A stretch of DNA of 50,673 nucleotides. It comes from a virus. Positions 2,755 to 47,400 of the stretch are shown one piece after another. The position numbers and the translations under genes were made by a program. Below the pieces are notes generated by a model. It saw only the letters and a list, made by a program, of their open reading frames with translations. It was not told where the DNA came from and ran no database searches. The stretch is taken from the IMG/VR virus record IMGVR_UViG_3300020194_001075, positions 1 to 50,673 of that record; one strand, written 5' to 3'. Positions within the stretch are counted from its first letter, which is position 1, and each line of letters starts with the position of its first letter.

Positions 2755-5598
2755 CTAGTTTAATATCAGGTTATAAATGGTATTCAAATCGTTGGCTAGT
2801 TCTCTGGTCACTGTGACCTCTTGTACACCAATGGATTGAACCCATCCATCTGCCGCGCCAGCATACACCTGTAACTCCTTATTGTCTGTGTTGAACCACA
2901 AGGCTCCCAATCTTGGTACTGTTGCGTTTCTTTGTGCTTCAGTTCCATATGGTCCTACGTAACCGTTTGTGGTGTCAAATTGAACTGTTCTGTTCTGTTT
3001 TAAGCCTGTTCCAGTAATGGTAATATCAGCATCAACAACTGTGTTTTCTATCAAACCACCAGTTATTTCAAGGTTTGCTGTGTCCAGCACAACTTTACCT
3101 GCACCGTTGGCTATCAATGCGGCTTGCCCACCTATACTGCCCACAGTTACAGTGTTGTTATCCAGTGCAAACTGATTTTGACTGGAAAATCTAGTAACCC
3201 TTAAATTACCCAAGCCGTCTATTTCACCTATATTATTCGATCCTGCGTAAAAAGTAAATTTATTATTGTTTAATTCTATTGCAGTATTTCTATCACCATC
3301 TTTAATTCCATTCAGTGCTATTTTGCCTGTGGAGAACATTTCAAATTCGTTCAAAGATGTATCATATCTAATGGCATTTCCTTCAGCAGGATCTTGAGCA
3401 GTTGTACCTTTAGGAATTTCAATGTTGGATAATCCTACAAATTGTAAACTGTTTCCACTGACCCCAAATCCTAGATCTCCTTGTGATGATGTGATTGTTG
3501 TTTTAAATCCAATATCTTCTAAATTAACTTTACCTGTGCCACTGCCTCTTAATTCTATGTCAGAGTTTGTGTCTGTGGCTTGTATGATGTTGTTGTGAAC
3601 TTCTAAACTGCCTGTTGAAAATCTTGTGCTTTCTAGATTCTGCCAACGCTTTGTGCTGGATCCTATATTACTTTGAGTATCTTGACTTGGTAATAAATCT
3701 TGTTGAAAGTCCATAGCAAAATCCACAGTGTCACCTGCTTCATTTCCAAAATTAATTGCAGATCCTCCAATAGTTACATTGCCTGTAACATCAACGTTTG
3801 GCATCAATACATTTGAATTTAAATTTACATTATTAGATCCAGCCGCACTAATTGTTAATCCGCCTTGTAAAGTTTGTATTTTGTTGTTTGAAATTCTAAA
3901 ATTGGGAACATCTATTTTTGTAGCATCTATTAAAGTTGTTGTACCAGCCACACCAACAGTAAGTGTTGAAGCACCTAAATCTCCATCATTTACAGCAATT
4001 GATGTTGTGCCTTTGCCAAAGTCAATTATAAAATTGTCACCAACTCTAAAGTCTCCTCCTTGATCTTGACTGACATAATAGATTCTACCGCTGTTAGTTT
4101 CTTCTGTTTCGTTATTTTGATCAATTAAAGATTCATCGTTTTCGACATCTTTACCTGAACCAACATAAGCAAAATTATGAGATATAGCATAGCCTTTTGT
4201 GTTTAATCCATCTGCTGTGATACCTTTATTACCGTACACACTGGCAGAAGCAATTATTCTTGCTTCAGAACCACTTAATAATTTTATACTGGTATCGGAA
4301 AAATATGTAAAACAATCTATAATTTCTGCTCTGGCTTGATTTTTTAGTGTTATACCGTCTGCCCCTGGTGTAATAAAAGTGACTGCGTTGAACAACATTG
4401 ATGCTCTTGGAGAGGCATTGTCTAATACCGATCCATCTACCAATGCGCCTTTACCAGCATCACCTGAATCAAAACCTCTTGGATCATCTACAGTTCTTGT
4501 TTCTCCTTGCGTAAGAACTGTAACGTTTTGTATGTATGGAGATTTTGTAACAATACCGGCATTTGGTGCAAATCTAAAAGCATAACCTTTATCATTTACA
4601 GCATCATATTGAAAATCTTTAATAGTTAATTCTGAAACCATGGACGCATCATTTAACAAAAATGCATCTTGAAATCTTACTGGTACTTTTGGTTTAATAA
4701 TTACCGATCTGATGCCGGCACCTTTAACAGTTACGTTTGCTGGTACTTCTAATGGAAATTCTTCTATGTAAGTGCCGGGTAAAATGTGTACTTCATGTGG
4801 ACCATTTGTGCTTTCTTCTAACTGTTGAAGTGCGTGTTTGATTGTGCCAAAAGCAAAGTTAGGATGATTTCCTGTTAATAAATCTGTTCCGTTAGTACTC
4901 ACATACCACTTGTTCTCTATACCTAAGTTTACTCTTACACCTGCTAGTGAGATTGTATTATCAACAACAATATCATTCAATCCAGTCATTGCTTGAACAT
5001 TTACTTGTCCCCAACGTTGATCCGTTTGTCCAATATTGTATATTCCTGTTTGATCTGGAATTAGATCAGATTCTATATCTCCTTCAAAACTTAATGTGTC
5101 GTCTTGACTGTCTCCACCGATAAAAATATTTCCATCAAATGTGATATCGCCTGTGGCTCGAATATTTCCATAAGTTTTTAAATCTGATGGAATGTTAAAA
5201 ATACCTGTGCCTGGACCTGGGTGGATATTGATATTATCATTGTTGTATGCTCTAATTCCGCTGTTTGTAAATGCTAAATTGTCTGTTCGCAATTCAGTCA
5301 TTTGAAAACTAGAACCTGCAATCATATTGATTGGACCTGTCAGTGTTGAAACAGTTTGTGTAGGACCGTCAATATCGATATTACCTACCGATGCAGAATT
5401 AGTTGCTATTAGATTTCCTCTGTAAATAGCATCTCCGCTTACTTGTAAATCTCTTGTAGGAGCGTCATTTCTTACACCAATTTTACCATTAGTGTGTCCA
5501 ATAAACAATAAGTCTGTTTCAAAAGCCAAATCACTATTTCTAGTTAGATTTGCTTTCAATAATGGACCTGATATCCTACCTACATTGGTTACTGGCAT
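2755..5598 (-). CDS. Tail fibre/adhesin-like virion protein, pectin-lyase-like beta-helix
   Basis: A 947-residue protein, paralogous to the gene at 1-2579 but without the LamG insertion. The N-terminus (VGRISGPLLKANLTRNSDLAFE) is shared. A pectin-lyase-like stretch lies at about residues 230-480 (WYVSTNGTD...; HILPGTYIEEFPLEVP; VKGAGIRSVIIKP). A module of about 50 residues ending in RW occurs twice: around 155-205 (GGDSQDDTLSFEGDIESDL...QRW) and 605-655 (FGNEAGDTVDFAMDFQQDL...KRW). The C-terminus has the short fibre motif AQRNATVPRLGALWFNT. The start has a strong AGGAG and a late element 17 bases upstream. No endosialidase or lyase catalytic motif is recognised, so a structural or adhesin role is most likely. 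Confidence 0.75.
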   Translation of the reverse strand: MPVTNVGRISGPLLKANLTRNSDLAFETDLLFIGHTNGKIGVRNDAPTRDLQVSGDAIYRGNLIATNSASVGNIDIDGPTQTVSTLTGPINMIAGSSFQMTELRTDNLAFTNSGIRAYNNDNINIHPGPGTGIFNIPSDLKTYGNIRATGDITFDGNIFIGGDSQDDTLSFEGDIESDLIPDQTGIYNIGQTDQRWGQVNVQAMTGLNDIVVDNTISLAGVRVNLGIENKWYVSTNGTDLLTGNHPNFAFGTIKHALQQLEESTNGPHEVHILPGTYIEEFPLEVPANVTVKGAGIRSVIIKPKVPVRFQDAFLLNDASMVSELTIKDFQYDAVNDKGYAFRFAPNAGIVTKSPYIQNVTVLTQGETRTVDDPRGFDSGDAGKGALVDGSVLDNASPRASMLFNAVTFITPGADGITLKNQARAEIIDCFTYFSDTSIKLLSGSEARIIASASVYGNKGITADGLNTKGYAISHNFAYVGSGKDVENDESLIDQNNETEETNSGRIYYVSQDQGGDFRVGDNFIIDFGKGTTSIAVNDGDLGASTLTVGVAGTTTLIDATKIDVPNFRISNNKIQTLQGGLTISAAGSNNVNLNSNVLMPNVDVTGNVTIGGSAINFGNEAGDTVDFAMDFQQDLLPSQDTQSNIGSSTKRWQNLESTRFSTGSLEVHNNIIQATDTNSDIELRGSGTGKVNLEDIGFKTTITSSQGDLGFGVSGNSLQFVGLSNIEIPKGTTAQDPAEGNAIRYDTSLNEFEMFSTGKIALNGIKDGDRNTAIELNNNKFTFYAGSNNIGEIDGLGNLRVTRFSSQNQFALDNNTVTVGSIGGQAALIANGAGKVVLDTANLEITGGLIENTVVDADITITGTGLKQNRTVQFDTTNGYVGPYGTEAQRNATVPRLGALWFNTDNKELQVYAGAADGWVQSIGVQEVTVTRELANDLNTIYNLILN

Positions 5599-8325: not shown

Positions 8326-8333
8326 TATTTATC
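8326..8333 (-). promoter_or_regulatory. Late promoter element GATAAATA
   Basis: GATAAATA on the minus strand overlaps the stop codon of the gene at 8329-8601 and lies about 90 bases upstream of the ATG at 8235. It would start late transcription of the virion genes from 8235 downward, separating them from the early-type unit upstream. Confidence 0.55.
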
Positions 8334-8601
8334 GTTTGCTGAGTGATGCCAATAGCTCTACTTTTGAGAATTTTTTTGCTAGTTCTAAGGCTTGTACAAG
8401 CACTTGATTGGCTTGTTCTAAATAGTGTTCACGTTTGGTCCTGCGATAATCCACTAGTATGTTGGTGTATTCATCATACATTTTATCCAATGTGCGTTCC
8501 AGTCTTTTGATGTCGTTTATGAATATGCCGTGATTGCGTTTCCACACTTGTAATCTTTCCTGATATTCTTTAAATTCTACAAGCAGTTGTTCATGTTTCA
8601 T
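8329..8601 (-). CDS. Small coiled-coil protein, unknown function
   Basis: A 90-residue, highly charged protein predicted almost wholly alpha-helical, with heptad-like spacing over about residues 5-85 (EFKEYQERLQVWKRNHG; RLERTLDKMYDEYTNILVDY). It has no signal peptide or cysteine. The ATG lies four bases after the stop of the HemB-like gene, so the two are probably co-translated. A TTTAAATA sequence overlaps the end of that gene five bases before this ATG, so a separate late start is possible but uncertain. No homologue is recognised. Confidence 0.6.
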   Translation of the reverse strand: MKHEQLLVEFKEYQERLQVWKRNHGIFINDIKRLERTLDKMYDEYTNILVDYRRTKREHYLEQANQVLVQALELAKKFSKVELLASLSKR

Positions 8602-8605
8602 ACAA

Positions 8606-9409
8606 TTATTTAAAATGTTTTACAAGGTCTCTTGTGCCGTATGACACCAAAAATTTTACTCCTGCTCGCTTGTAAACTTCAGCAATTTCCAGTTGATGTT
8701 GGAATGTGGGCAGTCCTCTATACTCATCAGACACTTGATATAACCCAACAGGTTCATACATACCACACTGTATATTTGAAAACACACCCAGACTGTGCTG
8801 TGCTGGTTTTAACAAAATGTAATCTGCTTTTTGTTTTTGATAATCATTTGCATGAGCAATCATGCTCCAATTGTTGCTGATCGGCAGTTGATAACTTCTG
8901 CCTGTGGTTGGTGTGCTGTTGGCTAGATCTCTGAATGCACTGTAAAACACACTGCGATATTTTACATAAGCCATCACAGGTTTATTGGTTTCTGTTTTTA
9001 AATTTCTTACAGTGTGATCGCCCATGTCCGAAGGAGCCAGTATGTCTGCACCTGCTGACTCTAATTTTTTACCCAAATCAATCAACAGTGCTTCACTGGT
9101 GTCTGGTTTATCCAACACTCTACAATGTCCATCTGGCAGTGTGGAACATAGACACACATCCACAATTAATTCTATATTTGGAAAACGTGTTTTAATTTTA
9201 TTCACAACCTCAGCATTAAAACTCCAATCAGGAGTCCATGTTTTGGTATCAGGAGTTATAAACAACAGGAAACTGTCTACTCCAACATCAACATCTTGTT
9301 GAATTCTATCTAGTATGGTGTCTTGTGAATAACTGGAATTTTCTAAACCTAATCCAGCCGTCTTATTGCTACCAGATTGGTTCACAAAGATTGGCTGGAT
9401 TAAGTCCAT
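8606..9409 (-). CDS. hemB-like: HemB-like porphobilinogen synthase (delta-aminolevulinate dehydratase) homologue
   Basis: 267 residues, against roughly 320-340 for cellular HemB. The family joins two 5-aminolevulinate molecules into porphobilinogen. Visible matches in order: DLIQPIFV (2-9); DVCLC (84-88) with DGHC (93-96), giving the three metal-site cysteines 86, 88 and 96 with family spacing; AGADILAPSDM (119-129); MAYVKYRSVFYSAFRD (146-161) with Schiff-base Lys150; DYILLKPA (196-203) with Lys201; and YQVSDEY (224-230). Lys150 and Lys201 are 51 apart, about as in cellular enzymes. The N-terminal arm that wraps the partner subunit is missing, and SDMMDGRV reads SDMGDHTV. Catalysis is plausible but unproven. 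It starts seven bases after the lipoprotein stop, so it probably shares that gene's sigma70 promoter. Confidence 0.85.
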   Translation of the reverse strand: MDLIQPIFVNQSGSNKTAGLGLENSSYSQDTILDRIQQDVDVGVDSFLLFITPDTKTWTPDWSFNAEVVNKIKTRFPNIELIVDVCLCSTLPDGHCRVLDKPDTSEALLIDLGKKLESAGADILAPSDMGDHTVRNLKTETNKPVMAYVKYRSVFYSAFRDLANSTPTTGRSYQLPISNNWSMIAHANDYQKQKADYILLKPAQHSLGVFSNIQCGMYEPVGLYQVSDEYRGLPTFQHQLEIAEVYKRAGVKFLVSYGTRDLVKHFK

Positions 9410-9415
9410 CGTGTT

Positions 9416-9616
9416 TTACTTCTTGTCTTTTTTAGGAAGTGCCGCACACTGTTCTGTATCTGCTGGTAAGCCAGCATTTTTGTCATAGATCCAAACGTAT
9501 GAGTATGTTACTTTGTCATCACTCACTTGACATTTTTTTCCAAATGCTACTCTTGGTTCTTTGATAGAACAAGCAGACACTAACAACATGGTTAAAAGTA
9601 TCGCGATATATTTCAT
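9416..9616 (-). CDS. Small lipoprotein
   Basis: A 66-residue protein with a classical lipoprotein signal: MKYIAILLTMLLVSAC, lipobox L-V-S-A-C with Cys16 as the predicted lipidation site. The mature part is 51 residues with two further cysteines (29 and 57) that could form a disulfide, and a lysine-rich tail (KKDKK). The ATG at 9616 follows GAGGA. It is the first gene behind an exact-consensus sigma70 promoter, right after the gp23 terminator, so host polymerase alone should express it early. Small phage lipoproteins made early often block superinfection (for example T5 Llp), so exclusion is a reasonable inference; a lysis-related role is the alternative. Confidence 0.75.
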   Translation of the reverse strand: MKYIAILLTMLLVSACSIKEPRVAFGKKCQVSDDKVTYSYVWIYDKNAGLPADTEQCAALPKKDKK

Positions 9617-9648: not shown

Positions 9649-9677
9649 ATTATAGCACATTTTGGTTTGGATGTCAA
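9649..9677 (-). promoter_or_regulatory. Exact-consensus sigma70 promoter
   Basis: On the minus strand TTGACA (9672-9677) and TATAAT (9649-9654) are separated by exactly 17 bases. The predicted start near 9642 gives a leader of about 26 bases with GAGGA before the lipoprotein ATG. It drives the lipoprotein, HemB-like and coiled-coil genes. Confidence 0.9.
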
Positions 9678-9704: not shown

Positions 9705-9730
9705 AAAAAAAGGGGGCCGAAGCCCCCTTT
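9705..9730 (-). terminator. Rho-independent terminator after gp23
   Basis: On the minus strand GGGGGC, a TTCG tetraloop and GCCCCC are followed by seven T residues. It ends the capsid transcript just after gp23 and keeps it apart from the sigma70 promoter at 9649-9677. Confidence 0.93.
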
Positions 9731-9752: not shown

Positions 9753-10934
9753 TTAACTGAATGATGTGTTCGATACACCGATCGTTTCAACATAATCAGC
9801 CGCGTTACCTAAAGATGACGCTGTGTTGTTTAACTCTACATAACCATATCTAGTCATGAAAGAAACAACTGGCTCAAAAGTTGATGGATCTAGAACAACA
9901 CCAGAAGACATTAACGGAATGTATGGGCAATAGAATGCCGCCGCATCTGCTTCTGATGATCCTTTGTAACCAACAAGTACATCTGTACTGTCAGCCGCAT
10001 AAGTGTCAACATATACTTTCATCGCACTGTTTAAAGTTCCAACGAATTTTTGGTTAGTTGGTGCTTCAAACGTACCTTCAGTTGTTCTTGCGAACGCTGA
10101 AGTTGTAGCAGACTGAAGTACTGTTAATGCTAATGGAGATACCACTGCAAAATTACCAGCACCACGTCTTGTGTTTTGTGCGATTTTGTTAGCCGCTCTG
10201 TTGATTAATACAGCCAAAGCCGCGTGTTCATCACCTACGAAAGTCGCAGTTCCTGATACAGCCGCTTGGTTGTATGTTCCAGATGATTGAGCACCTGCAA
10301 GTGATCTTAATGAAGTGATGATCTCTTGGTCGATTTCAGCAGTAATTTCTTGTGCTAATGCCGCCATGATTTCAGCCTCTACATCAATACCTTGTTGTGC
10401 TTGTGCATCTTGAGCAGATTCAAATGTCCATCTTGCTTGTAACTTACGAGTTTTTGCTTCAACTGTTTGTTTCAAGATTTGGATTGACATTGCTCTACCA
10501 CCAGTACCTTCTTTAGTTGCTGTTGCATCACCTTTAGCAGTTGTTAAACTACCTGAGTATGCTTGAGCAATTTTGAATGGTGATAGTGCTTCTTCACCTG
10601 CCGCCGTGTCTGTGTTGATAGCAGAAGTGTCGTTTGTTGTTTCTGCGTATCTAACTCTTAGTGTGTGGATTTGACCAACTGGGCCAGTCATTGGTTGAAC
10701 TCCAACCAATTCGTTAGCGATTACAGTAGGCATAACCCTTCTGATCACCGGTAGGATCACTCTGTTTAAAGTAGCAACGTTACCTGCAGATGTAGCACCT
10801 GCTGTCGCAGACTCTGAAAGATACTTTTTAGTATTTTCTAAAGTCGCTTCCATCACGGCTTTTTTATTGCCTGATAGACCTTCTAATAACGCACTCTTTG
10901 TGTCCTGCCAGCGAGTTTCTGTTAGTTCTGACAT
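9753..10934 (-). CDS. 23: Major capsid protein gp23
   Basis: 393 residues, shorter than T4 gp23 (521). The N-terminal region (ATLNRVILPVIRRVMPTVIANELVGVQPM, about 53-81, followed by GPVGQIHTLRVRY) is the signature of T4-like major capsid proteins, and the C-terminal half carries VSPLALTVLQS and YKGSSEADAAAFYCPYIPL. It builds the hexameric shell lattice and is normally trimmed by gp21 after an (L/I)-x-E sequence. Candidate sites are LLE (16-18) and LSE (39-41). It starts behind AAAAAAGGAG, 18 bases after the scaffold gene, and is followed by a strong terminator, fitting its need for very high expression. Confidence 0.95.
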   Translation of the reverse strand: MSELTETRWQDTKSALLEGLSGNKKAVMEATLENTKKYLSESATAGATSAGNVATLNRVILPVIRRVMPTVIANELVGVQPMTGPVGQIHTLRVRYAETTNDTSAINTDTAAGEEALSPFKIAQAYSGSLTTAKGDATATKEGTGGRAMSIQILKQTVEAKTRKLQARWTFESAQDAQAQQGIDVEAEIMAALAQEITAEIDQEIITSLRSLAGAQSSGTYNQAAVSGTATFVGDEHAALAVLINRAANKIAQNTRRGAGNFAVVSPLALTVLQSATTSAFARTTEGTFEAPTNQKFVGTLNSAMKVYVDTYAADSTDVLVGYKGSSEADAAAFYCPYIPLMSSGVVLDPSTFEPVVSFMTRYGYVELNNTASSLGNAADYVETIGVSNTSFS

Positions 10935-25238: not shown

Positions 25239-25267
25239 ATTATAAACTACTCAGTTAATTTTGTCAA
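25239..25267 (-). promoter_or_regulatory. 55: Exact-consensus sigma70 promoter for gp55
   Basis: On the minus strand TTGACA (25262-25267), 17 bases, TATAAT (25239-25244). The predicted start is near 25232. The -35 box overlaps the late element of the divergent gp48 gene. Confidence 0.92.
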
Positions 25268-35499: not shown

Positions 35500-38400
35500 A
35501 TGGCATACGATAATGATCAAAAAGATTTCGAATTGCCCGCAGGCAAAGACAATGGTAAAAGAAAGTCTGCTGAATTCTTACCTAAATATTTTAGAACTCC
35601 AGTAAATCAAAAATTTTTACACAGCACACTTGATCAATTAATTTCTCAAGGAACTCTTGAAAAGTTAAATGCTTATTACGGAAGAAAAGTTACAAGTGCT
35701 TACACTTCAGGTGATTTATATGTGCCTGAAATAAGTGCTGATAGAGAAAACTATAAATTTGAACCATCTGTTGTTCAAAAAGATGATCTAGGAAATGTAA
35801 ATTTTTATTCAGATTATATCGATTTTGTAAATCAAATTGCCAACTATAATGGCGACACATCTAATCACAGTGTTTTGAATGCTCAAGAATATTATGCTTG
35901 GTCTCCTAAAATAGACTGGGACAAGTTTGTAAATTACAGAGAATATTTTTGGATGCCATATGGTGCATCTACAGTATCTATAAACGGACAACAACGAAAT
36001 GTTGTCAGCACATACACAGTTACAAAAAGTGATCAAGGTGACAACTATGCTTACATTTTTACTCCAGATGGTTTAACGGCGAATCCTACATTAAAATTAT
36101 ACAAAGGACAAACATACAAATTTGAAATTGATGCTGAAGGATTACCTTTGGTTTTTAGAACACAAAGAATATTAGACGAAAGTTATAATTTCAATGATGG
36201 TATAGATGTTCAAGCAGTTGAAAAAGGCATAATAACTTTTCAGGTAAAAGATTCAACACCTGAAAAATTATATTATGGTTCATCAAATGATATCAATGCT
36301 TGGGGATTAATCCAAGTGTTTGACATTGAAGAGAATTCAGCCATCGATGTTACCAATGAAGTATTAGGTAAGAAAAATTATACCACTGCTGACGGAGTTG
36401 CTCTTTCTAATGGAATGAAAGTTAATTTCAAAGGCACAGTTACTCCAGCACAATATGCCGAAGGAGATTACTATGTAGAGGGTGTAGGCGAAGCAATTCA
36501 ACTTATTAATTCTCAGAATTTAGAAGTGGTCAGTAGTTTTACAAACAGTGTGCCCATTCCATTTGATTCCCAAAATTTTGATACAGTGGGTTTTGGAACA
36601 GCAACATCATATGCTGTCAATAAAGACTATGTGGTCATTAATAGATCATCACCAGAAGGAAGTCCATGGACAAGACACAATAGATGGATACATCGTTCAG
36701 TTATTGAAGCCAGTGCCAGTGCAAATGGTCAAGTTGCAGACATAGATCAAACTTCAAGAGCACGTAGACCTATTATAGAATTTGAAGCAGGTATTAAACT
36801 ATACAACTTTGGAACATCGAGCAAAGGCAATGTAGATTTAATAGACACAGTGACTAAAGATGTAATGAGCGACATAGAAGGATCTGAAGGATTCTACGTT
36901 GATGGTATTGCTGTTACAAATGGTTTAAAAATATTGTTTACAGCAGATACAGATCCGTTGGTGAAAGATAAAATTTATCAAGTAAAATTTATAGACCTTG
37001 AACTAAATGGAATAAAAACCAACCAAGTAAGTTTAGTAGAAGTTGCAAATGCTTCACCGAAAGAAGGTGAAACAGTTTTAGTTACTAATGGTGTAAAAAA
37101 CCAAGGCAAATGGTATCATTATAACAATGGTTGGAAAACATCACAAGCGAAAACAAAAACTAATCAAGCACCATTGTTTGATCTTTTTGATAGCAATGGC
37201 AACAGTTACACAGATGATATATTATACCCAAACAGTTCGTTTCGGGGAAATAAAATATTTTCATATGCAGTCGGAACAGGCACTAACGATACTGAATTAG
37301 GATTTCCATTAACTTATCAAAACGTTGAAAATATTGGCGATATTGTTTTCAACTTTGATTTATTAAATCAATCATATGTGTATGAATCACAAACATTAAG
37401 TGGAACACTTGCTTCAGAAACAGCATTTTTAAAAAAATACAATGCTCAAGGACAATTTGCCACAGTGAATGGTTGGTCTAAGGCACCAACAAAAAGTTTT
37501 CAAAAAGTAAACAGACAATATGTAGCCAGCACTAATCAATTGAACGATTTTGCTGTAGACGTGTATGACAAAAGTGGTGATTTAAATGATTTAGGAGTAA
37601 AAGTTTTTGTTAACAACAAAAAGAAAACACAAAACGTTGATTGGTATATTTTAAGAGTAGATTCAGTTGCTTATGTAAAATTTTACACAAATCTAAAAGC
37701 CAATGATGTTGTTTTAATTAGAACAACCAGTGCCACTGACAAAAATGCTAATGGACATTATGAATTTCCAACAAATTTACAGTCTAATCCATTAAATGAC
37801 AAAGTAGTTACATTCACAGTTGGACAAGTGACTGATCACGTAAAATCAATCACTAATGAGTTGACAGATATACAAGGTGTCACACCAGGAGTAAGCAATT
37901 TAAGAGATTTTCCAAATGCTACATTGTATGGAAGAAAATTTTTACAACACAGTGGACCAATGGTGTTGTCTTCATATTTGTTGAATAACAAAGAAGTCAA
38001 TTTAATTTCGGCAATATCACAAAGTCAAACAGACTACTACAAATTTAAAAGATCATTTGTGAGTGCTATGGACGATTTGGGATTTGACGGTACATCAGTA
38101 CAAATAGTTGATAAAATTTTAGAAAAACTTAATAAAGACTCCAACGATAATCTTCCTTATTTTCAAACAGATATGTTTGGAGTAGGTGCATATATTAGCA
38201 CAACACACGAAGTATTAGATGTAGACAGTAAATTTTTTGCTTTAAAAAACAGTCATAATCTTTCTACTCTATCAAATAAAGCAGTGTATGTGTATCTGAA
38301 CGGTGATCAATTACTTCACGCACATGACTATATTTTTACTGATGGTTTTGTTCAAGTAACTAAAACTTTAACTTTAGATGACACTATTGTTATTAATGAA

Positions 38401-41400
38401 TTTGAAACAACTAACGGAACATATGTACCACCTACACCGACTAAATTAGGATTATATCCAAAATATGTTCCTAAAAAATATTCAGACACAACCGCTTTAG
38501 AGCCAGTTAATGTTATTCAAGGACATGACGGTAGTATCGTTGTTGCATACAATGATTTTAGAGATGATGTTATTTTAGAACTAGAAAAAAGAATTTACAA
38601 TAATATAAAAGTTGTTTTTGATGAAAATTTATTTGAAATAAAAACTTTTATACCTAGAGCAAATTCAATCAACGAATTTACTGAAGCATCTATCAATAAA
38701 ACATTATTGGGCGATTTTAATGATTGGTTAACATTTATTGGAAACGAAGATTACACAGCCAACACTTACCAGTCTGATGAAAACAGTTTAACTTGGAATT
38801 ATTCTAACATGGTGTCACCGCAAGGGACTAAATTATCAGGATACTGGAGAGGTGTGTACAAATATGCTTATGACACAGACAGACCAAATATTACTCCTTG
38901 GGAAATGTTGGGGTACACAGAAGAACCATCTTGGTGGTCAACAGTGTACGGACCAGCACCATACACCGGAGACAATCTTGTGTTATGGCAGGATTTAGAA
39001 AAAGGAATTGTAAGAGAACCTAATAAAAAAATTATAATCAAAGACAAATATAAAAGACCAGGATTGACATCGCATATTCCAGTGGACAGTAATGGAAATA
39101 TAAAAAGTCCATTTGATAGTGCTTATGCCAGAGGTGCTGTATTACAATTAACTAAAGGAAACTTTAAATTTGGCGATCACGCTCCAATTGAAAATGCTTG
39201 GAGAAGAAGTGCTCATTATCCATTTGCTCTATTAAAAAGTTATATTTTACATAGACCTAATCAAGCAGTTGGTATTGGATTAGACATCAGTAGAACAAAA
39301 AGAAATGCAAGTGGTCAAATTGTTTATAATTCTTTAACAGCAATTAGACCTAAAGACATTGTATTTCCAAGCAGTATTGCAGATAAAACAATAAACTTAA
39401 CAGCAGGATTAATAAACTATATTTTTGAAGTGGTAGAAAACTCACTAACCACCAACTATGCTTCTTACAAAAAACAACTTACTGAATTAACAGTACAGAT
39501 TGGATTTAAAATTAGAGGTTATAGCAACAAAAATAATTTCAAATTATTAATTGATAGTAAGACTCCGCTAAACAGTACGTCGTTGTTTGTACCAGATGAA
39601 AATTATCAATTAATTTACAACGTTTCGGCACCTATCGAAATTTTAACTTATAGTGGACTGATCATAGAAAAATTAGCCAGCGGTTACAGTATAAAAGGTT
39701 ATGATAGAGATGACCCTTATGTAAGATATCACGCAGTGTATGAACAAACCAGTGATCCTGCAATTACAGTGGGAGGCATAAGTGCATCATTTGTAAATTG
39801 GAGCGAAAATAAACGTTACGATAGAGGTGCTTATGTAAAATATTCTGATGAGTTTTATGCTGTAGACGAAACACACGTTTCAGGATCAACATTTGATCTT
39901 TCTAAATTTTTAAAATTAATTGATCTGCCAACAGAAGGTGGCAGAACTGCAATCCTTAGAAAAAAATTCTTAACTGATGCTGTGGTAGAAATTCCATACG
40001 GTACTGTGTTTGATACAATTCAATCAGTTGTTGATGTAATTCTTGGATATGAATCATATCTAAAATCAAAAGGATTTAAATTTGATCAGTTTGATAGTCA
40101 GACGGAATTAGTATCCAACTGGCAATTAAGTATGAAAGAATTTTTATTCTGGACTACACAAAATTGGGATGAAGGTGCAGTAATCAGTTTAAGTCCAGCC
40201 AGTAAAAAACTTGTATTAGAATCGAAATACTCTACAACTGACAATGTTGTGGATAATTTCTATTCATATGGTGTATTAAAAGAAGATGGAAAAAATTTAG
40301 ACAAAGAAAATTTAAGAATTACTAGAGAATCAAACACATTTGAATTGTTTACAAAAAACACTGTTAATGGAATTTACTTTGCTAAAATTCCTTTAGTACA
40401 AAAAGAACACGTGTGTTTAGTGGATAACTCAACGGACTTTAATGATTTAATCTACGATCCAGCAAGTGGTTACAAGCAAGATAGAATTAAAATGCTTGGT
40501 TACATCACAGAGTGGGACGGCAGTTTAAATATTCCAGGATTTATCTATGACGAAGCCAAAGTAGTTGAATGGCAACCATACACAGATTATGCTATGAGCG
40601 ATGTGGTTAAACACAAAGAATTTTATTACACAGCCAATACAAAACTTAAAGGCACACAAGAATTTAATGACAATGACTGGCGAAGATTGGATGATAAACC
40701 ACGAAGTAGTTTATTGTCAAATTTTGATTACAAAACTAATCAGTTTGCTGATTTTTATGATCTTGACACAGACAACTTTGATAGTCAACAACAAAAACTA
40801 GCACAACATTTAATTGGGTATCAACCAAGAGAATATTTACGTAATATCATTAACGATGATGTGAGTCAATACAAATTTTATCAAGGTTTTATTAGAGAAA
40901 AAGGAACATCAAATGCTCTTAATAAATTATTTGATGCTTTAGCAAGTGCTGATAAAGAGAGTTTAGATTTCTATGAAGAATGGGCAATACGAAAAGGGCA
41001 ATATGGTGCTGTAGATACATTTGACGAAATAGAATACAATCTTGATGAATCTAAGTTTAGATTGAACCCACAACCTATTTTGTTAACAGATGACTCGGCA
41101 AACACAGCATCTGATTTGGTTTATAGAATACAGTCTGGACAAACATATCTAGCACCCAAGGATTATACACACACGCCTTTTGCCATTAAGTATGACAAGA
41201 ATACTTACATTAAGACAGCAGGACCAGTTAATCCAATAGATATTTCTCTCACATTATCTCAGTATGAAGATATATTAACAAATTCTAATGTTAAAAATTT
41301 ACTTGAAGGACAATATGTTTGGATTGGAAATTACAATAAAAGTTGGACTGTTTTAAAATATACCAAAACAGAACAGCAAACAGTTTCAGTAGTAAAAACT

Positions 41401-44400
41401 GGATCAACAATCACAGTTAACACATTGAACACTGCTGTTATGAATGTAGGCGAAATTTTTGTAGTAAGTATTGACGGTGAAGATTATGTATTAAAATGTA
41501 CAACAGCAAATTCAACAACAATTCAATGTGAAGATAAAGAAGGATTTGTTTCAATAGATCCAGGAGTTGGTTACATTACACGATTTATAGAATATAGATT
41601 AGGTTCTATTGATGACATCAACACAGTAATAAACAATCAAGGATTAACAGATAATGAAAAATTCTGGATTGATGAAAGTAATGATGGCAAATGGAAAATA
41701 GTGAACAATAAATTTGTTTATAAAACACACAATGAAATAAGTTCAACAAGTACATCAGGCGATGAAAGTTTTGGCACAGTTATAGCCGCTAATAAACAAA
41801 ATTCTATAGTATTAGTAAGTCAACCATCAGATGGTGATGGAAAAATTTATGTTTTTTCTAGAGGATCGGAAAGCGGTTCATTAAAATTATTACAGACTAT
41901 TGAAGCACCAACATCAGATTTATTACTAAATTCAGACTTGTTTAGTTCAAACAGTAGTTTTGGAAAAGCAGTGGATATTTCACCAGATGGAAATTTTGTA
42001 ATTATTGGTGCTCCTAATGCCGGAGATTTGAAAACGGAATACAAAGGAGTATACAATCCTGCTTCAAATTACAATGTAGGTAATATTGTTCAATACAAAC
42101 AACAACTTTGGAGAGCAACTAATCAAATAGAAGGTGCAGTGGCATCTGATTTATTTTCAACTTTTGACGCTTCAGCATTTTACAAAGAAAATATTGGTTT
42201 CTCAACAACCTCGCTGTTAATAGGTGACAGTGTATTTTCAAACGAAACCACAGATCACTTACTAATTAGAGGATCAGCAGATCAGTATTCAGCAACAAAA
42301 ATTGGTGACAAATTAATATTAAAATATCTTGATTTCAGTACAGAATATCCTATTGATAGAAACAATTACAACAAATCTGCTAATCAACCATTCAATGGAA
42401 TAGGTGCTCCTACTATTAAAAACAATGTGTTTAGTGGTGCTGAAATTTCAATTCAAGCAAAAGTAGATGAAATACTTCAAGTATCATTGACACTCAGAGA
42501 TGCTCCAGTGTCCAGTGTTGTAAGTACAAGCACAGCACAAGGTACTGTTGTGTACTCGAGAAAAATAGCAGGAAAGACTTTATTGTATTTGAAAGATGTT
42601 AGAGGTGTATTTTCTGCCAGTGGTAGTTTGTTATTGGATACTTTACCGATAGGAGATTACACTAGAGTAAACACAGAAGATTATGATCATCTTGGTGGAT
42701 GGTGGAAAGTTGGCATAGGTGCTAGTGTATCCACTGGTGCAGGTGCTGATATATCAACGAACGTTGTAATTCAAGATATTAAATTATTAAATGAAACTAG
42801 AGATAGCAATTTGTTTTTCAGTTCTTTTGAACAACCAATTGTTCCTATAACACCACAAACTCCTTTAGTAAAAGCACAGTTTGGGTTAGGAACATACTAT
42901 CAAAGATATTACATTAATCCAGCAAATAATTCTTGGCAAAGTAATTCAACTCCACAAGGAATATTAAGTAACAAATGGTTTGTTAGAACAGGATATGATA
43001 TTGCTCATGATGGTGGACTAAATTCTAGTAATTCAGCCAACAATGTAAGTGTTTGGTTCAATAACGTGGATCAAAATGCATTTGATTTTTCTGGGTTAAA
43101 CATTGACAGCGATGACACTAACGGTATAAAAGAAGTTGTAGACATTTGGGAAGGTTATATTGATATAGATTCCCAACCAGACAATAATGCAAATTATTAT
43201 TATCCGGAAGCAGGTGTACACACTATATATGATCCTATAAAATTTGTTCAAGCAGATGTTACATTTGTACAGTTTATTGCTTTAGAAAAAATAAGAGTTT
43301 ATTTTAGAAATGCTAGAAACACAGTGGATCCAAATGGTTCAACGTTGTTCAGTCTAGGATCGAATGCAGGACAATCTGCAACCATTCAAAGACTGGGAGG
43401 CGGAGTTGATAGATTAATAGGATCTATTGAACAAGCAGTTCAATCAGGACCCAATGATGGAGATATTTTAGTATTTGAACACACAACACCAATCACAGCA
43501 TCAGGTGATCCTGCCGCATACACTGTGAATGATATAGAGTACTGGATATGGGACGAGTTTGAAAATGTTGCAGGTATTCAGCAACTTGCAAATATTCCTA
43601 GCAGTCAAAATAGAGATTGGTTACAGGTACACAATATTCCTATTGGTGAAGGAACAGCCAGCGGATTAACAAACCAAGGTGCATTTTTAGTTTATAAAAA
43701 GAACACAGCAGGACAATATGCATACAATTCAGCATTCACAGTACCGGACACACAATCTGGATTACGTTTAGGTTCAAAAATTCAAATACGCGATGTTGGG
43801 GACACAACAGTTGCATTTATCAGTGCTGAAGGAAATGGTTCAAACGCTTTACCAGGTAAAGTTTATTTTATCAAATACAGTTCTACTAAAAATTGGTGGT
43901 TAGGTGTAGATGAAAACTACATGGGGCAGTTTGATCAAGATGCTGATTATTTAAAAGACGAATTAGTAATTTATAATAATCAACTGTACAAGGCAAAAAC
44001 AAATATTAGTTCAGGTGCATGGACCAGCGACGTTTGGGAGTTACAAGATAGTCATGCAGATTATTTAGGTTATGTGCCTAACGATAGCGGAATAGAATTA
44101 CAAGGAGATTCAACATTAGATCAAAGTAAATTAATAAAATTTGCAAACACATTTGATGTTGATACAAATGGAGTTAATTTAGTTGTAACAAATCAATACA
44201 ATGACTCGAAACAAGATGTTATTGTTTACAGATTAGATAACAATCATTACACATACAAACAAACTATTTTACCACCGCAAGACTCTACTCCTGTAATTGA
44301 TTTTGGTGCAGATATCAGTATATCAGAAGACGGCGAATTAATTGCTGTAGGATCTCCATTGAAAGATTTAACAAATATTGATATGGGTGTGGTTTATGTT

Positions 44401-47400
44401 TACAAAAAAGCCAGCAACGATACAGGTCTATACAATCTAAATCAAACACTAGTCAGCCCAGACAAAGAAACATCAGAACAATTTGGAAATACACTGTCAT
44501 TCAGTGGCAATGTACTTGCTGTTTGTTCGTTAAAAGGTGATCAACAGGTAGATGATGGATCTACAGTTTTAGATGAAAGATATGATGTTGGTTCTGTACA
44601 TTTATTTGAAAAATTTGAAAGCACTTTACTATATGCTGAAAAATTCAGTTATGACAATTCTTTTACTCAATTTGGTACAAATTTATTAGTCAATAAAAAC
44701 CATGTATACATAGGTTTACCTAAATTACAAATAAATGGAAAACAAATGGGTACTGTGGTTGATTTTAGAAAATCTCCATTAGAGAATAATTGGAACAGTG
44801 TGCATGAAAGCAGTGACGGAATAGATCAACCAGATTTATCAAAAATACAAGGAATTTTCTTATACAACAAACGAACAAATACACTGTTAACAAGATTAGA
44901 TTATGTTGATCCTGTATTTGGTAAAATACCTGGACCAGCAGAATCAGAAATTTATTACAAAACTAATTATGATCCAGCAGTATACAATTCAAATTCAGCA
45001 GTTGGAAATATTGATACAACAAATCATTGGAACAGCAATCAAATAGGAAGACTGTGGTGGAACATCAGCACAGCACAATATTATTATCCTTATCAAAGTA
45101 ATATAATCTTTAATAATTCATACTGGAACAAACTTTTTGTAGGTGCTAGTATTGATGTGCATGAATGGGTTGAATCGGTCTACACACCATCTCAATACAA
45201 CATTATCAGTCAGTCAGAAGAAGGTGAAGCATTAGGTATTACAGGAACAGTTGTTAATCCAACTGATTATGTAACCACAAAAGTTTATGATGATGTTGCT
45301 AAAGTTTTATCAAACAAATATTATTTCTGGGTTAAAGGCAAAACCACTGTGCCTGAAATGGAATCACGAACATTAAGTGCCAACGCTGTTGAAAATTTAA
45401 TAAAAGATCCAAAAGGTCAAGGATACAAATATGTAACTATTTTTGGCAAAAACAAATTTGCTATTGTTAACTGTGATGAATTTATACAGGACAAAGATAC
45501 AGTTATCAGTTTTAGAATCAAAAGAATTGATAGTAAAAATAATGTTCATAAAGAATATGCTTTATTAACTGAAGGTTTAGGAACAAGTACACTACCTAAA
45601 GAAATTGAAACAGTTTGGTTTAACAGTCTAATAGGATATGATGCTCAATACAATCCAGTGCCTGATCCAACATTGAGTGAAAAATTAAGATACGGAACAC
45701 TGCAATATCCAAGACAGAGTTGGTTTATAAACAAACAAGAAGCACTAAAACAAACAGTGGAAAGAATTAATTCTGTTTTACTACAAAATCTAATTGTAGA
45801 TGAGGTTGATCTTTCATCGCTTACACAATCAGATCCTGCACCAAAAATAAACACAGGATTATTTGATGTTGCAATTGACACAGAAAAAGATTTAGATTTT
45901 GTAGGTGTTGGATCAGTAAAAACTGCTTCAATTAATATTACAGTTGAAAACGGAAAAATAATTAATGTAACAATCGCAGATCCTGGCAAAGGATACAAAT
46001 CTATTCCAACGTACAAAATAAAAAGTATCACAGGAGAAGGTGCTGTAATTGGTTTGACTATAGATATAAATGGTTCAATCAACAGTGCTAGAATATTGTC
46101 GCAAGGTAAAAATTATGCAGATACTACAACAGTTGAAATTAGAAATTACAGTGCTCTTGTACAAGCAGACAGCACAGTTGATGGCAAATGGGCAATTTAT
46201 AGTTACAGTGCAACTGATGGTTGGCAAAAATCAAAAATACAAGCCTACAATGTAAATTTATATTGGAACTATGCTGATTGGTATGCAACAGGATACAATC
46301 AATTCACAGCAATAGACCATGTGATATCTCAAAGTTATGAAATAACCGCAATAGATGATACAATAGGACAAATAGTTAAGATTCAAAACATTGGAGCAGG
46401 TGGTTGGTTACTACTGAAAAAAATCGGTAATCAAGCAGATGTCGATTACACAGTTAATTATGAAACTGTTGGAAGACAAAACGGAACAATTCAGTTCACA
46501 GATAAACTTTATGTTTACAGTGGAAATGTTGGATTTGATTCTAATAGTTTCGATATTCAATTGTACGATAGACAACCGATTCAAGAAACTAGAACAATAT
46601 TAGAAACTGTAAGAGACAAAATATTTGTTGAAGAACTGGCAGTTGAATACAATAAATTATATTTTGCTGGCATTCATTACGCACTATCAGAAAACAAATT
46701 AAATGATTTTGTTTTTAAAACAAGTTTTGTAAAAGCACAACACAATGTGGGCGAACTGGAACAGAAAATAACATTTAAAAATGATAATCTATCTAACTAT
46801 GAAGATTATGTTCAAGAAGTAAAACCTTATAAAACTAAAATTAGAGAATATGTAAGTTCATATCAAAAAACAGAACCTACCAATTCTGTAATCACAGACT
46901 TTGATTATCCACCTAAATATGTAAATGGTATAATCACACCGTCAAAAGTTACAGTTGTAAATGACACATTGGTTGGTGCTGAGAATGTTAAGACTTATCC
47001 AGATAAAAACTGGAAAGACAATGTTGGTTTTAAAATTACAGCAATTAATATAGCCAATCCTGGTACATTATATACTAACCCACCTACTGTTAATATTACA
47101 GGTGGCGGTGGAACAGGTGCAACTGCTAGAGCATACATCAAAAATGGTTCAGTGAACAGAATAGTTGTGATCAACACAGGATCTGGTTATATATCGGCTC
47201 CTACAATTACATTGAGTGGATCAACAACAGGCGTTACAGCCAAGGCAAGTGCTGTATTGGGTGAAAGTTTACCTCGTACTACTCACATTGGAATTAAGTT
47301 TGATAGAAACACTGGAACAACATTAATTAGTAATTTACAAAGAACAGAAACATTTGTTGGCAATAACAGTCAGTTAAAGTTCAAATTAAAATGGCCGATG

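Follow-up and report, generated by a model that had tools for sequence, protein, structure and literature searches.

Porphobilinogen synthase (HemB, or ALAD) supplies the precursor from which heme and related pigments are built, and it is a textbook example of an enzyme in which activity depends on the state of assembly, by way of an N-terminal arm. A gene for a HemB-like protein that lacks this arm lies at positions 8606-9409 (minus strand) of an IMG/VR fragment (record IMGVR_UViG_3300020194_001075), whose full 50,673 nucleotides are referred to here as the window. The question raised by this locus is whether a virus encodes a working enzyme of tetrapyrrole synthesis, perhaps in an altered oligomeric state, or uses the HemB fold for another purpose.

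Family and fold of the window protein

The hemB reading frame starts with ATG and encodes 267 amino acids. A profile search matched residues 1-262 to the Pfam ALAD family (PF00490) at E 1.2e-42 and 146.7 bits, above the curated cut-off of 24.6 bits and far beyond chance. ALAD was the sole Pfam match up to E 1, no PHROG family was found for the protein, and the 24 solved-structure sequences that matched it were HemBs. The NCBIfam equivalog for porphobilinogen synthase (PRK09283) scored 129 bits, below its cut-off of 297. An AlphaFold2 model built from 34 viral sequences had a mean pLDDT of 95.7 and a pTM of 0.93, and 266 of its 267 residues aligned with E. coli HemB (1b4e) at 1.6 Å and Z 36.6. 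Among the best 50 rows of this fold comparison, HemB entries had Z values of 29.8-36.6 and other folds reached at most 17.5; a Foldseek comparison was also run on the model. The window protein is predicted to have a HemB-type barrel, in which K150 falls inside strand 145-151 and K201 at the end of strand 197-201. The 267-residue HemB homologue of the original prediction is borne out by reading frame, profile match and fold, and both of the checks named with it, an ALAD-family profile search and, at the level of the fold, an overlay on a HemB structure, came out in its favor.

The catalytic residues on which that prediction was based were present. The two Schiff-base lysines are K150 in MAYVKYRS (E. 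coli K195; codon 8960-8962, minus strand) and K201 in LLKPA (E. coli K247; codon 8807-8809, minus strand), separated by 51 residues compared with 52 in E. coli HemB, and the three metal-site cysteines of DVCLC...DGHC are C86, C88 and C96 (E. coli C120, C122 and C130; 9122-9154, minus strand). The context of K150 had been called intact, which holds for the motif and the lysine, but compared with the cellular MSYSTK or MAYSAK a single residue is missing between Y148 and K150. The motifs described as changed, SDMMDGRV and YQVSGEY, do differ, reading SDMGDHTV and YQVSDEY in the window protein. Shorter loops follow C130 and YQVSGEY, and another precedes the first lysine.

The window protein was about 22-30% identical to the HemBs compared. 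Viral and cellular HemB (PF00490, E. coli 1b4e) share the fold over 266 residues, the Schiff-base lysines, the zinc-site cysteines and the substrate Arg, Gln, Ser and Tyr, whereas the viral proteins have lost the arm (E. coli residues 1-28) and a glutamate that we take to belong to the allosteric magnesium site, have several shorter loops, and carry invariant residues of their own such as G258 and R260. Residue 1 of the model aligns with E. coli residue 29, so the missing part is the arm. The codons TAA-AAC-ACG-ATG place an in-frame stop three codons 5' of the start, so that a longer N-terminus in the same frame is impossible for the window gene, and the predicted absence of the arm was confirmed on both counts.

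Conserved and lost residues in the viral lineage

Scans of IMG/VR for viral hemB returned overlapping sets of 26, 56 and 67 loci, from which 39 distinct full-length viral proteins were drawn, the window's included. In an alignment of the window protein with 33 other rows, these had 37-82% identity to it. The non-viral comparison comprised 80 rows, E. coli and 79 cellular loci, with one truncated locus (L228) left out. The equivalents of D118, C120, C122, C130, K195, R205, Q220, K247 and Y312 (E. coli numbering, with functional roles that we assume for these residues) were found in all 39 viral proteins, and that of S273 in 38. L035-type proteins have G in place of this substrate Ser. The three zinc-site cysteines that define the zinc-dependent subclass of porphobilinogen synthases are thus present throughout, and the viral proteins are candidate members of that subclass. 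Ratios of dN/dS (NG86) were 0.05-0.22 in 12 of 12 pairs of viral hemB genes, which are under purifying selection.

Other positions set the viral proteins apart. Residues conserved in cells are altered at MDG after APSDM and at H127, G131, N225, D236 and P203, and the lid residue Arg216 appears displaced by one alignment column. Seven residues that differ from the usual cellular letter (Q5, N24, W62, D93, T133, G258 and R260) were invariant in the 39 viral proteins, and R152 was found in 38. Of these virus-specific residues, R152 near the lysine and G258 and R260 near the C-terminus might compensate for the lost arm.

The arm residues R10 and R12 were found in all 80 non-viral rows, and the Glu of E232, presumably a ligand of the allosteric magnesium together with Met1, was shared by 79 of the 80 non-viral rows and by none of the 39 viral ones. 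The viral proteins had been aligned from the start of the barrel onward, and their absent arm columns are partly a product of that construction, hence a separate check for upstream stops. An in-frame stop lay at most 28 codons upstream in 33 of the 39 viral genes. The other six had longer open upstream frames (L035, L016, L017, L020 and L038, 37 codons; L060, 49 codons) and no arm-like Arg motif within them; in L035 and L038 the 37 codons are the 66-amino-acid gene described below, read in another frame. Nine viral genes, L060 among them, could start at an upstream ATG and so gain 11-13 residues. Judged by sequence, the two marks of the arm-bearing allosteric enzyme that switches between octamer and hexamer, the arm and E232, are both lacking in the viral proteins.

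Cellular HemBs without an arm were sought in scans that sample cellular HemB, and none was present among the 79 untruncated loci of 80 (L228 is cut by a contig end). In the Pseudomonadota, 277 of 299 genomes matched the viral profile, the best at 167 bits, and the matches listed lay in open frames of at least 325 amino acids save one of 193. A genome scan with viral patterns gave 42 stretches, none of them a close cellular relative, and, with viral L059 as the query, the best 80 of 579 confirmed cellular loci shared 30-37% identity with it. A tree was made by a quick method from 45 cellular proteins (bacteria and archaea) and 21 viral ones; in it, all viral rows fell on one side of a branch with SH-aLRT support of 100, whose halves measured 1.42 and 0.97 changes per column. 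On this tree the viral HemBs are one deep clade apart from the 45 cellular HemBs.

A tblastn search with the window protein identified nine GenBank phage records, all 27-30% identical to it and none with the viral type of HemB. In the record of Acinetobacter phage MD-2021a, hemB sits among bacterial genes; two further records are unverified, unannotated assembly pieces; and we infer that the remaining six are host sequence. Cellular-type HemB is encoded in the 'phage' records CAKLQF020000028.1, CAKLQH020000030.1 and the OR84/OR85 series, and some GenBank entries labelled as phage appear to be of host origin.

The missing arm and the lost glutamate, shared by all 39 viral proteins, strengthen the predicted idea of an altered oligomeric state. 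With both gone, the viral protein would probably function as a dimer or some smaller oligomer and not be subject to octamer/hexamer control. Because the regulation of cellular HemB depends on assembly, an armless enzyme should escape it. Its activity could be poor, since secure closing of the active-site lid depends on octamer-only contacts, according to the portion of PMC7729013 available, and an armless protein may not make these. A different expectation comes from Rhodobacter capsulatus, whose hexameric HemB, as presented in the available part of PMC535902, lacks the magnesium site and is yet highly active, showing that a non-octameric HemB without that site can be so. The Rhodobacter enzyme differs in being metal-independent, in lacking the zinc site and in having been modelled by its authors with N-terminal arms.

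Genomic setting of viral hemB

The window carries the markers of a T4-like myovirus: the major capsid protein gp23 (PF07068), the portal gp20 (PF07230) and a prohead protease (PF03420). The listed matches of its gp23 (66-69% identity) and its gp20 (47-52%) were to phage records of about 285-490 kb, including Phosso, PA5oct, GAP32 and Atu_ph07, and the window is probably derived from a jumbo-related phage. Elsewhere in the window, a single plus-strand ORF at 35500-50151 encodes 4883 amino acids, and two large minus-strand ORFs at 3-2579 and 2755-5598 share 42% identity; a Laminin_G_3 domain is present in the first, and the pair may be tail-fibre paralogues.

All features around hemB lie on the minus strand. 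Downstream of gp23 (9753-10934; PF07068, E 5.9e-101) are a terminator-like hairpin with a 9-bp stem, TTCG loop and T tail (9709-9730), a match to a sigma-70-type promoter (TTGACA-17-TATAAT, 12 of 12 positions, with TG before the -10; 9649-9677), an ORF of 66 amino acids with a lipoprotein-like signal identified by eye (9416-9616), hemB itself and, as its fixed downstream neighbor, a gene of 90 amino acids and unknown function (8329-8601). The promoter match thus stands upstream of both the 66-amino-acid ORF and hemB. The expectation of hemB beside gp23 was right in that gp23 is the conserved upstream neighbor, but the two are not directly adjacent, the 66-amino-acid ORF lying between them; homologs of this ORF occur in only part of the lineage.

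On the gp23-bearing contigs compared, hemB followed gp23 and preceded a gene of 89-107 amino acids (the L096 copy is incomplete), and gp23 was 78-100% identical within the set of gp23-to-hemB regions. The 90-amino-acid gene had no match in GenBank phages at E 0.1. Used as a query, it identified 72 viral loci, and in 70 of these a hemB match lay just upstream on the same strand, ending 8-63 bases before it. The two exceptions were L313, which begins at a contig end, and L314, which lacks hemB. In L314 the 90-amino-acid gene lies 88 bases beyond gp23 (81% identical), and the gap holds a terminator and a TTGACA/TATAAT pair with a spacing of 15 bases by eye. Both elements are therefore independent of hemB, and a moron, in which promoter and terminator would have arrived with the gene, was rejected because the hemB-less L314 has them at the same place. 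From this arrangement, hemB looks dispensable for the gp23-linked operon. Its position, flanked by gp23 and phage genes with a natural relative without it, is that of a phage auxiliary metabolic gene; L314 fell outside the hemB carriers in a tree with support of only 74. Distances between hemB genes tracked those of gp23 (Spearman 0.89) and of a neighboring capsid-region gene (0.82) over 15 related taxa and 105 non-independent pairs, as expected if hemB was inherited with the capsid-region genes.

Exact TTGACA-17-TATAAT sites occurred twice in the window compared with 0.10 expected, the second at 25239-25267 (minus strand). Promoter-like sites overall were not enriched near hemB (11 compared with 8.9 expected), and the 12 of 12 site there is remarkable for its quality alone. 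In 42 distinct gp23-to-hemB regions, 41 with hemB plus L314, 35 had an 11- or 12-match site compared with 0.54 expected from shuffles; the regions are related and so are not 42 independent tests. In L078, L081 and L086, an 11 of 12 match lies so close to the start of hemB, ending about six bases before its ATG, that the message would be leaderless. The T4 late promoter TATAAATA was considered and rejected, as its two occurrences in the window were no more than chance and neither was near hemB.

A second setting was found in relatives outside the gp23-linked arrangement. In L059 (48 kb) and G006/L094 (82 kb), hemB abuts or overlaps a preceding gene for HemF, coproporphyrinogen III oxidase (PF01218, E 1.2e-78 and 6.5e-78). 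In L059 a gene of the OMP-decarboxylase family precedes hemF, and the last 8 bases of hemB are shared with a heme oxygenase gene (PF01126, E 6.5e-17), giving a cluster of pyrF-like gene, hemF, hemB and heme oxygenase gene in which each overlaps or abuts the next (L059:8564-11372). The L059 helicase was 52% identical to those of PA5oct-type jumbo phages. A viral HemF query identified three contigs with hemB adjacent in all three, two of them with near-identical hemB, and hence two lineages. HemF was found in 2 and heme oxygenase in 1 of the 31 records tested, and HemC in none of 30, all of these records being fragments; on the gp23-linked fragments searched, hemC, hemF and heme oxygenase were not found. 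These neighbors provide independent evidence for a tetrapyrrole role, and the suggestion that the phage boosts or redirects host tetrapyrrole synthesis gains from viral relatives that lie directly after hemF and, in one case, before a heme oxygenase gene.

Another 84 proteins from four relatives were surveyed, covering the best 25 of 101 NCBIfam and the best 25 of 43 Pfam families. Genes resembling bL12 (named by eye) and GMP reductase were located at G002:94186-95621 and at G006:68186-68551 and 2783-3832, and so in both a gp23-linked and a hemF-linked hemB phage; they do no more than hint at an alphaproteobacterial host. An alternative oxidase gene (PF01786, E 5.1e-82; L115:15913-16524, matching G001:129910-130491) belongs to a 134-kb relative of the window phage and was seen in 1 of 31 records.

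Proposed function and its alternatives

The best explanation, to which we assign a probability of roughly 70%, is that the gene encodes an active and unregulated HemB by which tetrapyrrole synthesis is maintained while the infection proceeds. It rests on homology, the model fold, the conserved active site, the missing arm, purifying selection, the conserved place of the gene and the hemF and heme oxygenase neighbors of viral relatives; from these we infer activity, oligomeric state, promoter use and timing, and benefit to the phage. The conserved chemistry and the same-pathway neighbors argue for an active porphobilinogen synthase. The protein would convert two molecules of 5-aminolevulinate to porphobilinogen by the usual mechanism of two lysines assisted by zinc, and would probably do so as a dimer or smaller oligomer that, without arm and magnesium glutamate, would be beyond the octamer/hexamer switch. 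hemB would be transcribed from the strong sigma-70-type promoter, at the front of an operon that directly follows the capsid gene, and tetrapyrrole synthesis, heme first, would be kept running in the infected cell. Against this stand the equivalog score of less than half its cut-off, the changes at cell-conserved residues with the deletion beside K150, and the gp23-linked fragments on which no other gene of the pathway was seen; moreover, HemB is not usually the limiting step. For the fuller picture the odds seem about even: a virus-only HemB lineage that has shed arm and allosteric site and still catalyzes as a dimer or monomer, freed from the switch, in jumbo-related myoviruses, and forming a phage tetrapyrrole operon in two contig lineages, where it adjoins hemF and, in one of them, heme oxygenase as well.

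It is improbable, but the least so of the alternatives, that an active HemB mainly serves products other than heme (siroheme, cobalamin or bilins), or heme turnover and iron release with heme oxygenase. The overlap of hemB and heme oxygenase genes in L059 would fit this, as would published phage cassettes (PMC11480375, main text) in which heme oxygenase and bilin reductase accompany ALA synthase, but heme oxygenase was seen in that single record. Slightly less probable is a HemB-like protein without activity that would lower heme synthesis in the host, either by associating with subunits of the host enzyme or by binding 5-aminolevulinate or zinc. Loss of the arm and presumed allosteric site, loop changes near the active site and the low equivalog score could each mark such a protein, but its catalytic residues are kept down to 37% identity to the window protein, its genes are under purifying selection and have hemF and heme oxygenase neighbors, and the arm that mediates the hugging of subunits is the very part that is missing. 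A virion or assembly protein that reuses the barrel is very unlikely, for its fixed place in the capsid/tail-fibre region between gp23 and further conserved phage genes, adjoining the 90-amino-acid gene at nearly all loci, is outweighed by the same site without hemB in L314, by homologs in the metabolic cluster of L059 and beside hemF in G006, and by the intact active site. The invariant catalytic residues and purifying selection thus disfavor the other use of the fold that had been raised at the outset, and an active HemB remains the preferred reading.

Related phage genes have been described. The phage ALA synthase (vAlaS) cassettes of PMC11480375 likewise supply an early tetrapyrrole step, sometimes with heme oxygenase, and regulation is argued there to have been lost, with no heme-binding site; vAlaS is a different enzyme, acting at the step before HemB. 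In the main text of that paper hemB does not occur and porphobilinogen appears only in the title of a reference. One sentence of PMC7029224 names marine myophages with coproporphyrinogen oxidase, porphobilinogen deaminase and GMP reductase. These 'deep ecotype' pelagimyophages resemble G006, which likewise has hemF and a GMP-reductase-gene homolog, but in the text available it is the deaminase (HemC) that is named and not the synthase, and hemB is not mentioned. In the parts available, PMC13390420 names ahbD and alaS as viral heme genes, and PMC13184970 and PMC13188868 refer to viral genes for heme biosynthesis but do not name hemB. PMC9123017 contained none of the heme terms sought, and in PMC12926485 the letters 'hemB' occur once, within the name of an author. 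No published phage HemB was found among the matches listed, in a search mainly of open-access literature and of main texts without supplements. Phage ALA synthase and heme oxygenase genes are therefore already published, while phage hemB was not found in the literature searched.

The viral genes add the second step of tetrapyrrole synthesis, and a cluster of hemF, hemB and heme oxygenase genes, to the short list of phage tetrapyrrole genes. With an armless viral clade, the dependence of HemB activity on arm-mediated assembly becomes directly testable, and an armless HemB that still catalyzes, if that is what these genes encode, would offer a naturally occurring case in which to ask if lid closure and activity require the arm. 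For the phages themselves, the findings point to tetrapyrrole supply as something that these viruses may keep up during infection.
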